A DNA stretch of 64,000 nt from an uncultured Phascolarctobacterium sp. Lineage in GTDB: Bacteria > Bacillota > Negativicutes > Acidaminococcales > Acidaminococcaceae. The notes under the pieces are model-generated. The model was not told the origin of the DNA, did not search any database, and saw nothing but the letters and a program-made list of their open reading frames with translations. The position numbers and the translations under genes are program-made. Below, piece after piece: positions 28,278 to 63,038 of this stretch. The stretch covers positions 62,001 to 126,000 of the forward strand of contig CASDXO010000002.1 of NCBI GenBank assembly GCA_949285135.1. Reading direction: 5' to 3'. Position 1 is the stretch's first letter. Each line of letters starts with the position of its first letter.

Positions 28278-28287
28278 AGTTAACTGT

Positions 28288-28330
28288 ATTGTAAAACAGG
28301 TTGACTGCAAATACTGCTTTGTTTTATAAT
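28288..28330 (+). promoter_or_regulatory. Promoter with an overlapping dyad upstream of the hydratase-bioY operon
   Basis: TTGACT (28301-28306), 18 bases, TATAAT (28325-28330). The half-sites ATTGTAAAAC (28288-28297) and GTTTTATAAT (28321-28330) form an inverted repeat around the promoter. The half-sites look somewhat like BirA boxes but the 23-base spacer is longer than the usual 14-16. Confidence 0.6.
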
Positions 28331-28359
28331 AATTTACAGCATGAAAGGATGTTGAAAAT

Positions 28360-28896
28360 ATGCTGGAACTGGCACAGGCATTGGCAAAATGCGATCAGGA
28401 AGTGTTCAAAGGCTGGGTCATTGCCGGAGTTGATGCAGAAATTAGCGGCAAAGCTGAGATATACAGTAATGAGATACTGGTGCAAAACAAACGCAGGAGT
28501 ATTATCCTTGTGCAGGGAAGAAGCAATGACGGCAAGTTGCAAAAACAGCTGAAGGTGATACTTATGCTGCCCCGTCAGCTTGGACGTGCTGATACGCAAG
28601 ACGAGGAGCTTGCGGATAAGCCTTCCTATGAACATATATTCTCTGTTGCGGAAGTATCTGAATATCTTGCCCGTGTGGGTGATGAGAATATTATTCACAG
28701 ACAGCCGCGGCCTATAGTTCCGGGAATGCTGCTGTTAAGCTGGCTGCAAAAAACAGCAGGAATTGCAGCGCTGAACTGGAAGGTACGTTTTGTACAGCCG
28801 GTTTACAGTGGTGAAACAGTGAGCTGTTGTTTTCAGGAGCAGACAATTACAGCATATGTCAATGGAGCCAAAGTGTTTATAATCAGTAAAAAATAG
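28360..28896 (+). CDS. MaoC-like hot-dog hydratase
   Basis: A 178-residue protein whose second half (about 92-170) matches the MaoC/(R)-enoyl-CoA hydratase pattern: FSVAEVSEYLARVGDENIIH with the catalytic Asp108 and His113 five residues apart as in PhaJ, then IVPGMLLLSWL and the strand RFVQPVYSGETV. Residues 1-90 are not recognised and may be a decayed first hot-dog domain. It is the first gene of an operon with bioY, a thiolase and an acyl-CoA ligase, so it probably hydrates an enoyl-CoA in that pathway. Confidence is moderate because overall similarity is thin. Confidence 0.6.
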   Translation: MLELAQALAKCDQEVFKGWVIAGVDAEISGKAEIYSNEILVQNKRRSIILVQGRSNDGKLQKQLKVILMLPRQLGRADTQDEELADKPSYEHIFSVAEVSEYLARVGDENIIHRQPRPIVPGMLLLSWLQKTAGIAALNWKVRFVQPVYSGETVSCCFQEQTITAYVNGAKVFIISKK

Positions 28897-28914
28897 ATTA
28901 AGAAGGTGTTTTAT

Positions 28915-29454
28915 ATGAATTCTTCCGTGAGCAAGACTGCCGAAATGACTAAGATTGCACTGCTGGTGGCAATGAATTGTGTATCAGCGTATATTGTAAT
29001 ACCTTTGCCGTTTTCGCTGTCGCCGATAGCGTTGCAGACGATGTTTGTCAATTTGGTGGCATTTTTACTTACGCCGCGTCAGACTTTTATGACGATGCTT
29101 GTATATATCCTGATTGGGCTGGCAGGCATACCTGTGTTTACCGGCGGCACGGCAGGACCGGCAAAATTGTTTGGCCCCACAGGAGGATATATTTTCGGGT
29201 TCATGGTTGCGGCAGTGCTGATTGCCCTGCTGCGCGGCAGTGAATACAGTTTTAAACGTTACAGCATAATAGGTATTGGTGTCGGCATACCGGTAATTTA
29301 CCTGCTGGGTGCACTGCAGCTTAAATTTGTTACGGGTATGGACTGGCAGGCTGCTGTTGTGACCGGCGTGCTGCCGTTTGTACCGCTTGACGTAGTTAAA
29401 TGCCTTGCGGCAGCTTTTCTTGCAGGACCTATCCATAGGGTTTTTTCCAGGTGA
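28915..29454 (+). CDS. bioY: BioY biotin transporter (ECF S component)
   Basis: Substrate-binding membrane protein for biotin uptake, working with a shared ECF module or alone. The 179-residue protein has six hydrophobic segments and the BioY landmarks: IPLPFSLSPIALQTMFVNL, GLAGIPVFTGGTAGP, KLFGPTGGYIFGF, and a C-terminal VPLDVVKCLAAAFLAGPI. I use the ATG at 28915; the GTG at 28906 is part of the ribosome binding region. The thiolase begins 3 bases after the stop. The order bioY-thiolase-ligase resembles B. subtilis yhfU-T-S and its staphylococcal counterpart, which are BirA-controlled. Confidence 0.92.
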   Translation: MNSSVSKTAEMTKIALLVAMNCVSAYIVIPLPFSLSPIALQTMFVNLVAFLLTPRQTFMTMLVYILIGLAGIPVFTGGTAGPAKLFGPTGGYIFGFMVAAVLIALLRGSEYSFKRYSIIGIGVGIPVIYLLGALQLKFVTGMDWQAAVVTGVLPFVPLDVVKCLAAAFLAGPIHRVFSR

Positions 29455-29457
29455 TGC

Positions 29458-30594
29458 ATGATGAATAACGCTTATATTTTGGGAGGACTGCGCAGCTATG
29501 TAGGAGTCTGCAACGGCATGTATCGGCACGTGCCTGCAGAAGTTCTTGGTGCAGCAGTACTGCGTAACGTTATGGAAAAATATCATATTGTGCTTCCTGA
29601 CTATATCATTGCCGGCAACGGCGTGGGTGCAGGCGGCAATATTGCCAGGCTAATGGCGTTGGAGGCAGGTGTGGATATTTCCGTGCCTGCTTTTACTGTA
29701 GATGTTCAGTGTGGCAGCGGCTTGGAAAGTATTGCAGTTGCTGCTGCCAAGATTGCAGCAGGAGAAGCGGACGTAGTTATTGCCGGAGGTTTTGAAAGCA
29801 GTTCCACACAGCCAAGACGCGGCTATAATCCCAATCATCCTGCTTATACGGGTGATAACTGGTATAGCGTAGCTAAGTTTATGCCAGGCATTCACAGAGA
29901 AACTGTCATGCTTGAAGGGGCAGAGCTGGCAGCAGAACAGGAGAATATAACCAAAGAGGAAATGGATGCCTGGGTGCTGCGCAGTCATGCTCTTGCTGTA
30001 CAAACACAGCAGAAAGGGCTGCTGAAAGACGTGGTAACTTCCGTATGTGGCGCAAAGGCAGATGAAGGGATAAGACCCAGAATGAGTCAGCGGCTGCTGG
30101 ACAGGATGCCTAAAGTGCTGCCGGAAGGAAAGTTCATCACTGCAGCTAATTCCTGTCTGATAAATGACGGAGCAGCTTTTCTGGTGCTTTGCTCAGAAAA
30201 GTATTTACAGCAGCATCATCTGCGGGCACAGGCAAAAGTGCTTGGCTCTGCTGCCTGCGGCGGTGATCCGCTTGTAAGTCCTAAGACGGCTATTCTGGCT
30301 CTGCAGAAACTGCTGCAAAAGCAGGGATTACAGGAGCAGGATATTGACGGATTTGAACTCAATGAAGCTTTTGCGGTGATTGACGTATTATTTGCCAGAG
30401 CATTTCCGCAGAGCATGGAAAAATACAATGTTTTTGGCGGAGCACTGGCTTATGGACATCCTTACGGAGCTTCCGGAGGGATTATCCTGCTGCATTTGCT
30501 GGAGTCGCTTAAACAGCGTAACGGCAGGCTTGGCTGCTGCAGTGTGGCTGCGGCCGGCGGTGTGGGAACGGCGCTGTTAGTTGAAAGGGTGTAG
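29458..30594 (+). CDS. Thiolase-like enzyme with an atypical active site (YhfS-like)
   Basis: Thiolase-fold protein of 378 residues, 3 bases after bioY. Seen: nucleophile Cys85 in DVQCGSGLES, ELNEAF, and GHPYGASGG with His334. The second catalytic Cys of thiolases sits in a GLATLCxGGG motif; here the aligned stretch is GCCSVAAAGGVG, so that position is Ala364. The acetyl-CoA acetyltransferase reaction would therefore be altered; acyl transfer or a C-C bond reaction with another base is possible. It probably acts with the neighbouring ligase and hydratase on an acyl-CoA tied to biotin supply, as inferred for yhfS of B. subtilis. Confidence 0.8.
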   Translation: MMNNAYILGGLRSYVGVCNGMYRHVPAEVLGAAVLRNVMEKYHIVLPDYIIAGNGVGAGGNIARLMALEAGVDISVPAFTVDVQCGSGLESIAVAAAKIAAGEADVVIAGGFESSSTQPRRGYNPNHPAYTGDNWYSVAKFMPGIHRETVMLEGAELAAEQENITKEEMDAWVLRSHALAVQTQQKGLLKDVVTSVCGAKADEGIRPRMSQRLLDRMPKVLPEGKFITAANSCLINDGAAFLVLCSEKYLQQHHLRAQAKVLGSAACGGDPLVSPKTAILALQKLLQKQGLQEQDIDGFELNEAFAVIDVLFARAFPQSMEKYNVFGGALAYGHPYGASGGIILLHLLESLKQRNGRLGCCSVAAAGGVGTALLVERV

Positions 30595-30597
30595 AAT

Positions 30598-31815
30598 ATG
30601 GATTATCTTACTTTACTGGCACAAAAGCAGCAGGATAAAGCTGCGCTGATAACTGATGAGAGGTCGTATTCTTATGGTGAGTTGGTCAGTCTGGCTGCCG
30701 CAATACGCGGCAGTGAAGTTTTACCAGCACAGGCTGTCTTTATACACGCTGGCAGGATAGCTGAGCAGCTGGTACAGTTTCTGGCCTACAGCGGCACTTT
30801 ATCGGTACCGGTAATTGCAACAGAAGTAAGCAGAGCGCAGCAGTTCAATATAGAAGATATTCCTGCAGAAGCCTGTATGGGAGTTATGACTTCTGGCTCT
30901 ACCGGGCGCAGTAAGCTTTTATGGCGCAGCTATCGTAGCTGGGCAGATTTTTTTCCGCAGCAGAACAGAATTTTCGGTATTGATAATAGTACGGTTATTT
31001 TCTGTCAGGGAAGCCTTGCTTTCACGGGAAATCTCAATATTTATTTAAGCGTACTTGCTGCAGGCGGAACTATTGTGGCAACAGAAAAATTTCGTCCCCG
31101 TCACTGGCTGGAAATGATAAAAAGTTTTGGCGTAAATACAATGTATCTGATACCGTCGAAACTGCTGCTGCTTGCCAAAATGGTCAGAGAAGCGGAACAA
31201 GGTGTACGTCATATTGTCAGCGGTTCTCAGAGTCTTGGCAGAAAAGATGCGGAAAAACTGAAAAAAGCTTTTCCCCGTACGGAAATAACTCTCTATTATG
31301 GGGCCAGTGAACTCAATTATATAACCTACATTAAAGACAGCGAGATGACGGAAGACCGTACCAATATAGGACGAGCTTTTCCGGGCGTCCATGTCTCCGT
31401 AAAAAATGAGGAAATATTCGTTGATACTCCTTATGGCGTCGAAGGAATAGCAATGCCTTTTTCGTTAAAAGACAGAGGATATCTTGCTGACGATGGCAGT
31501 CTGCATTTTTTGGGCAGGATTGATGATATCTGCAATGTAAATGGGATGAAGATTTCGGCAGGCAAGGTTGAACAGGCTCTGACGGACATCAGTGAAGTTA
31601 CGGAGGCGGCTGTTATGGCTGTGCATCGTAATGATGCTGACAGTCTGGTAGCTTTTGTGGCCGCTGAAAAGCGTTATTCCAAACAGGAATTATTGCTGCT
31701 TTTAAAAGAAAGTCTGACGGAATATGAAGTTCCAAAACAATTTATATATTTGCCGGAGCTGCCAAAAAATGAAAGTGGTAAAATTGACAGATTAAAACTG
31801 GCAGAGAAATTATAA
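30598..31815 (+). CDS. AMP-forming acyl-CoA ligase (YhfT-like)
   Basis: ANL-superfamily enzyme that activates a carboxylic acid with ATP and CoA. At 405 residues it is short for the family (about 500), chiefly in the N-terminal domain. Core motifs are present: MTSGSTGRSK (ATP loop), LYYGASELNYIT (A5-like), YLADDGSLHFLGRIDD (A7-A8 hinge) and the C-terminal catalytic Lys in PKNESGKIDRL. It follows the thiolase by 3 bases and is the last gene before a strong terminator. The acid is unknown; a medium-chain or pimelate-type acid is attractive because of bioY. Confidence 0.83.
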   Translation: MDYLTLLAQKQQDKAALITDERSYSYGELVSLAAAIRGSEVLPAQAVFIHAGRIAEQLVQFLAYSGTLSVPVIATEVSRAQQFNIEDIPAEACMGVMTSGSTGRSKLLWRSYRSWADFFPQQNRIFGIDNSTVIFCQGSLAFTGNLNIYLSVLAAGGTIVATEKFRPRHWLEMIKSFGVNTMYLIPSKLLLLAKMVREAEQGVRHIVSGSQSLGRKDAEKLKKAFPRTEITLYYGASELNYITYIKDSEMTEDRTNIGRAFPGVHVSVKNEEIFVDTPYGVEGIAMPFSLKDRGYLADDGSLHFLGRIDDICNVNGMKISAGKVEQALTDISEVTEAAVMAVHRNDADSLVAFVAAEKRYSKQELLLLLKESLTEYEVPKQFIYLPELPKNESGKIDRLKLAEKL

Positions 31816-62917: not shown

Positions 62918-63016
62918 AAATAAAAACCATCCGGGTCAATAAGATTGCCCAGACGGTCGGCAGTGTTCATGGTGCAGTACATGTGGTCAATTCCACTTAT
63001 CCGTCAGTCCTGCATC
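62918..63016 (-). ncRNA. ZTP (pfl) riboswitch with overlapping terminator
   Basis: Read on the minus strand, the leader has GGACTGACGG (63008-62999), a GTGGAA/TTGACCAC hairpin (62996-62983) and then GCCGACCGTCTGGGCA (62961-62946), the highly conserved 3' part of ZTP riboswitches. The CCGTCTGGG block also pairs with CCCGGATGG (62935-62927) to make a terminator stem followed by TTTTTATTTT. Aptamer folding and the terminator are thus mutually exclusive, the expected expression platform: ZTP/ZMP binding would allow transcription of the OFA gene. Confidence 0.8.
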
Positions 63017-63038
63017 AGAATATTGAATTGTAATTCAT

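Follow-up and report, generated by a model that had tools for sequence, protein, structure and literature searches.

Why should the gene for a biotin importer share an operon with an acyl ligase, a thiolase and a hydratase? The question arises at positions 28,288 to 31,815 of a 64,000-nucleotide stretch of DNA (hereafter the window) from an uncultured Phascolarctobacterium sp. (GenBank assembly GCA_949285135.1, contig CASDXO010000002.1, positions 62,001 to 126,000), where these four genes form what we call the cassette. A sequence-only reading had described a single operon with an intact hydratase dyad at its front, an odd thiolase and no hydroxyacyl-coenzyme A (CoA) dehydrogenase, and had proposed that activation, hydration and thiolysis shorten or rearrange a fatty acid toward pimeloyl-CoA, the biotin precursor. 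The description of the operon holds; shortening by thiolysis now looks unlikely, and the role as a source of a biotin precursor is not borne out. Instead, at slightly short of an even chance, we propose an activate-extend-reduce-(release) module that would add two carbons (C2) to an acid imported by BioY, most likely a biotin with a shortened side chain such as bisnorbiotin. The cassette and its control elements, in window coordinates, are as follows.

28279-28305, strand not assigned: BirA-type operator, GTTAAC-N15-GTTGAC, overlapping the -35 box
28301-28330, + strand: sigma-70-type promoter, TTGACT-18-TATAAT, 11 of 12 consensus matches
28360-28896, + strand: hot-dog hydratase/dehydratase gene, 178 amino acids, compact double-hot-dog
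28915 (ATG)-29454, + strand: bioY, energy-coupling factor (ECF) S-component gene, by Pfam PF02632 and likeness to L. lactis BioY 4DVE
29458-30594, + strand: thiolase gene, Cys378-less, 378 amino acids
30598-31815, + strand: short AMP-forming acyl ligase gene, 405 amino acids
31814-31849, strand not assigned: hairpin terminator closing the operon, with a T-run present on the + strand as well

The four open reading frames of 28360-31815 are all intact and all on the + strand, with intergenic gaps of 18, 3 and 3 bp. Together with the Pfam matches, the promoter and the terminator, these near-touching genes confirm a four-gene operon in the order hydratase, BioY, thiolase, ligase. The cassette contains no hydroxyacyl-CoA dehydrogenase gene, so the pathway would need outside partners, namely reductases. 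The gene-neighbourhood search that had been suggested finds the set to be recurrent: among 79 named loci with the thiolase, a ligase lies within 4 kb in 76, BioY in 61 and the hot-dog gene in 46, and with such counts the gene set is not a matter of chance.

The thiolase carries most of the argument. In condensation, thiolase Cys378 deprotonates acetyl-CoA, and it has a part in thiolysis too; enzymes of the Cys-His-Asn type such as FabH use malonyl thioesters, the decarboxylation of which makes the enolate. Catalysis by thiolases is known to rest on Cys88/89, Cys378 and His348 (PMC4595758). The window protein matches Thiolase_N (5e-40) and Thiolase_C (4e-28) and, aligned to solved thiolases, retains the nucleophile Cys89 (as C85), Asn316 (N302) and His348 (H334), with alanine (A364) at the position of Cys378. 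This column is Ala in all 78 named-locus thiolases that have it. When Negativicutes, Azospirillum and Rhizobium sequences are added it is Ala in 94 and Gly in 10 (104/104), with C89, N316 and H348 retained, in a set where many sequences are related and some share a genome. Gly also stands here in the Sinorhizobium, Shinella and Streptantibioticus enzymes, and a Deinococcus beta-oxidation thiolase, examined as a control, has Cys at this position. The "odd" thiolase is thus odd as a family: Cys378 is lost in every member examined. Compared with Zoogloea PhaA and C. acetobutylicum ThlA, the cassette enzymes belong to the same thiolase family and share Cys89, Asn316 and His348, but differ in the Ala or Gly at position 378 and in an additional conserved Arg121, which marks nearly the whole Cys378-less family. 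Because the base Cys378 has been lost while Cys89, Asn316 and His348 are kept, we infer that the enzyme acts as a decarboxylative ketosynthase. Thiolytic chain shortening is unlikely, since the catalytic cysteine is absent family-wide and the partner enzymes added in other loci are reductases.

The hot-dog protein falls below the gathering cut-off of Pfam MaoC PF01575 (17.9 bits against 27; E 0.0024). Its motif, D108-x-N110-x-x-H113, contains the dyad D108/H113, and D108, N110 and H113 are the sole invariant residues in 38 homologues. Because a sequence search in the PDB gave no match, a structure model was made. This AlphaFold (AF2) model, built with 38 sequences, has a pLDDT of 95.7, and its best structural matches are M. 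tuberculosis HtdX (3wew, Z 17.3, 2.2 A, 164 residues), itaconyl-CoA hydratase and the hydratase-2 domain of MFE-2. Like R-specific enoyl hydratase 2/HtdX in predicted fold and in the D-x-N-x-x-H motif, the protein is unlike them in length (178 amino acids against about 235-340) and in lying under the MaoC cut-off. Judged by the model, it is most likely a reduced-size R-specific hydratase/dehydratase; a fold in common with R-specific hydratases does not prove that activity.

The remaining two proteins are more conventional. BioY matches PF02632 at 5.3e-39 (133.8 bits against a cut-off of 25). The ligase matches AMP-binding (4e-27) and AMP-binding_C (4e-11), with the ATP-loop and the C-terminal Lys present. 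Among Bacillota ligases, Thr143, Asn147, Tyr233 and Tyr241 are conserved at positions matching the nonribosomal peptide synthetase (NRPS) acyl-pocket code. These polar residues weakly suggest a fit to a polar ring rather than to an alkyl chain, weakly because the Thr and Asn are conserved in Bacillota and not in Alphaproteobacteria.

Genes that join the cassette elsewhere point in one direction. A FabV enoyl reductase lies just downstream in three loci (604-618 bits, cut-off 400), bioB is within the operon in five, and a 4HBT thioesterase lies beside the cassette in L194/L076. In Sinorhizobium, Shinella and the actinomycete Streptantibioticus, large replicons carry the order ecfA-(ecfT)-bioY-ligase-thiolase together with a 4HBT thioesterase and with an MDR reductase that has relatives among the quinone and acryloyl-CoA reductases; Azospirillum has ecfA-ecfT-bioY-ligase-thiolase, with no thioesterase or MDR gene within the stretch examined. 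Neither an acyl-CoA nor a hydroxyacyl-CoA dehydrogenase was seen to recur next to the cassettes. The FabV, MDR reductase and 4HBT thioesterase partners argue for synthesis followed by release. By their predicted activities, ligase, ketosynthase-like thiolase, dehydratase, enoyl reductase and thioesterase are an acid-plus-C2 module, the usual companion of which is a biotin importer: BioY beside the ligase-thiolase pair recurs in Clostridia, Azospirillum, Sinorhizobium, Shinella and an actinomycete. Of the 373 genomes sampled in Lachnospirales, 2 have the cassette, the centre genome being one of the two. In one Phascolarctobacterium metagenome-assembled genome it is decaying, the thiolase C-terminus and the ligase being interrupted (L088/L192, G009 contig C51).

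The link to biotin is also regulatory. The operator pattern GTYAACN{14,16}GTTRAC was searched over the whole 1.89 Mb genome, with the backward pattern as control, and gave 4 matches against 0. Three of the four lie at biotin loci: the cassette, the ECF-S/bioWF genes and bioY1-bioD-bioA. The fourth (C3:24003-24030, approximately L239:1501-1528), upstream of ecfA genes, was rejected as a terminator hairpin followed by a T-run, the arms of which mimic the operator. Of 78 named loci, 45 have the motif ahead of the cassette; the regions from -300 to +150 around the first cassette gene, 34.8 kb in all, hold 45 sites, and the other 959 kb hold 9. The genome encodes a 341-amino-acid BirA with an N-terminal helix-turn-helix (HTH) and the domains HTH_11, BPL_LplA_LipB and BPL_C, scoring slightly under the TIGR00122 cut-off (66.6 bits against 70). 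Given that the operator is rare in the genome, stands at biotin genes and is enriched at cassette starts, and that an HTH-containing BirA is encoded, BirA control of the cassette is a strong prediction. BioR-like sites, sought with a simple pattern in the Azospirillum stretch, were not found.

The gene set, the operator, the loss of Cys378, the hydratase motif with its predicted fold, the partner genes and the independence from BioF can be read from the sequences; from these observations we infer the type of condensation, its direction, the substrate and the product of a cassette pathway. When biotin is plentiful, BirA would repress the cassette; when it is low, BioY would import a biotin-related acid, which the ligase would convert to its CoA thioester. 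The thiolase, as a decarboxylative ketosynthase, would then add C2 from malonyl-CoA or malonyl-acyl carrier protein (ACP). The extended product would be reduced by a cellular FabG-type reductase, the hot-dog dehydratase and an enoyl reductase (FabV or MDR in some relatives), and a thioesterase would free the lengthened acid. If biotin is to be reached by adding C2, the substrate must be bisnorbiotin, which arises when a single round of beta-oxidation takes two carbons off the biotin side chain. Bisnorbiotin makes up 13-23% of the biotin excreted in human urine (PMC9106636). The substrate would thus most likely be bisnorbiotin or a relative, rebuilt to biotin; in operons that include bioB it may be the dethiobiotin counterpart. 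Somewhat more tentatively than the module itself, we suggest a pathway of vitamin repair, in which starved bacteria would import biotin shortened by beta-oxidation and rebuild it with the ligase, the Cys378-less malonyl-dependent ketosynthase, the dehydratase and a reductase.

Several observations weigh against this proposal. The formation of malonyl-CoA itself requires biotin, and in the literature searched we found no earlier description of bacterial bisnorbiotin salvage or side-chain re-extension. Many cassettes are without the hot-dog gene, and in other Negativicutes its place is taken by a FabA/FabZ-like gene downstream of the ligase in which the catalytic His position is poorly conserved (L087, L089, L090, L091, L092, L094). 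Azospirillum and rhizobial ligases do not conserve the polar residues of the pocket. No BioY adjoins the genes in R. etli, R. leguminosarum and R. ruizarguesonis, where the set consists of thioesterase, ligase, thiolase and MDR reductase. On the rhizobial plasmids R. etli p42f (L249), L244 and L251, the MDR reductase is divergent and the thiolase Cys378-less.

The chief competing explanation is that the cassette serves fatty-acid metabolism when biotin is limiting. With acetyl-CoA carboxylase limited, outside fatty or short acids would be activated and extended, and BioY would be tied to these enzymes by shared BirA control only. The cassette enzymes are indeed of fatty-acid type, and FabV and R-hydratases can serve CoA-based elongation. 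However, BirA is usually not the regulator in Alphaproteobacteria or actinomycetes, and the BioY-ligase-thiolase link persists in both; this explanation does not easily account for the tie to the transporter in other phyla. It also leaves aside the entry of bioB into some of the operons, and the loss of Cys378 removes the base for malonyl-free condensation, the sole chemistry that would bypass the carboxylase. We consider it unlikely.

Alternatively, the thiolase might only transacylate, Cys89 taking the acyl group and passing it to a carrier protein or other acceptor, so that ligase and thiolase would load a biotin-like acid unextended. An invariant Cys89 with Cys378 absent suits such an enzyme, but the enolate-stabilising Asn316 and His348 are kept as well, and the dehydratase, FabV and MDR reductase partners are left unexplained, which makes this improbable.

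A shade less probable again is synthesis of pimelate or pimeloyl-CoA, for example by extending glutarate with C2 to give the pimelate that BioW uses. According to a review, it is unknown where BioW obtains its pimelate (PMC11089781); the condensation of glutaryl-CoA with C2 is the BioZ step, and this genome and 15 other relatives carry the cassette and BioW together. Against it, BioY is not, to our knowledge, a dicarboxylate carrier. The genome already carries a fused bioWF, bioD, bioA and bioB, and no BioC over cut-off. The BioC route was rejected for this genome, the best match (1.1e-12) being far below cut-off. In this genus, as in a few relatives, BioW and BioF form one fused protein of 632 amino acids (L096:7394-9289, - strand), and in about 20 Negativicutes loci a membrane protein of ~155-167 amino acids adjoins bioW, nearly always directly upstream; here its gene is

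L096:9289-9789 (G000 contig C6), - strand: bioW-linked membrane protein gene, BirA-type site upstream

The protein has no Pfam or NCBIfam match, and its predicted fold is that of an ECF S-component: ECF transporter membrane components fill the first 22 places among its structural matches (Z 11-14.6), and the next match reaches Z 6.8. It is a candidate pimelate importer, perhaps the BioX of bioXWF, and would be a simpler source of pimelate for BioW than the cassette.

The distribution of biotin genes bears on pimelate more broadly. Among 47 named cassette genomes, chosen by likeness to the window thiolase and with completeness not given, 42 are without BioF, 36 without BioD and 20 without BioB over cut-off (BioF is present in 5 at E<=1e-50, in 4 over cut-off). 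They include isolates (Butyribacter intestini, Lachnotalea glycerini, C. difficile, Anaerovibrio lipolyticus) and are mostly biotin auxotrophs by gene content. Gut auxotrophs with BioB only, or with none of the four enzymes, are common (PMC6593275). A cell without BioF has no use for pimelate, and so 42 of the 47 could not use it. Among 61 relatives, which are not independent, so that p values are a guide only, BioF is present in 17 of 28 with the cassette (11 being without it) and in 16 of 33 without (Fisher p 0.44), and BioW is likewise not associated (p 0.61). BioB is associated with the cassette (27/28 versus 23/33, p 0.008), most clearly in relatives lacking BioF (11/11 versus 7/17, p 0.0016). 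By gene content, then, pimelate synthesis is rejected as the general role of the cassette. At L104 and L109 there is another type of BioB, which shares about 45% identity with the main form and has BirA-type sites upstream; some BioF-less genomes have no other BioB.

Catabolism, the beta-oxidation of biotin or fatty acids by cassette enzymes, is very improbable: ligase, hydratase and thiolase are beta-oxidation enzyme classes, but the two dehydrogenases do not recur as neighbours, the added partners are reductases, the Cys378 needed for thiolysis is gone, and a BirA-type site predicts repression by biotin, not induction.

How does the cassette relate to known systems? S. aureus BirA represses bioY and yhfS-yhfT (PMC6391492), and B. 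subtilis yhfU-yhfT-yhfS is likewise BirA-repressed according to the review (PMC11089781). The kinship with these operons that had been recognised from layout is sound: all combine BioY, an AMP ligase and a short thiolase under a BirA-type operator. At the equivalog level the thiolase comes nearest to PRK06690, after the broad TIGR01930, and the ligase to PRK07638, but both proteins score far under the cut-offs of the yhf-type models (thiolase 250.2 of 498 bits, NF005212; ligase 147.3 of 518, NF005797). Unlike yhfU-yhfT-yhfS, the window cassette adds a hot-dog dehydratase, and relatives add FabV, thioesterase, MDR reductase or bioB. The proposed chemistry resembles that of BioZ, a ketoacyl-ACP synthase III (KAS III)-like enzyme acting on glutaryl-CoA and malonyl-ACP (PMC11089781), in making one decarboxylative C2 extension toward biotin; it differs in using an enzyme of the thiolase family, not FabH, and in occurring mostly where BioF is absent. 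Elsewhere in the window, dinB precedes the operon and a ZMP/ZTP riboswitch lies at 62940-63021 (- strand, 57.2 bits).

As a variant of the orphan yhfU-yhfT-yhfS operon, the cassette has a proposed function that is specific and can be tested, so that YhfT and YhfS, BirA targets of unclear function, gain a defined chemistry to test, and a Cys378-less thiolase family is tied to biotin importers in three phyla. Should the substrate prove to be another, the distribution would still speak against pimelate as a general explanation. If the proposal is true, a repair pathway would be common to gut Bacillota, rhizobia and actinomycetes and would account for the orphan YhfT and YhfS. Shortened biotin from hosts and microbes would then be a usable nutrient, and predictions of who needs whose biotin in the gut and root zone would change.

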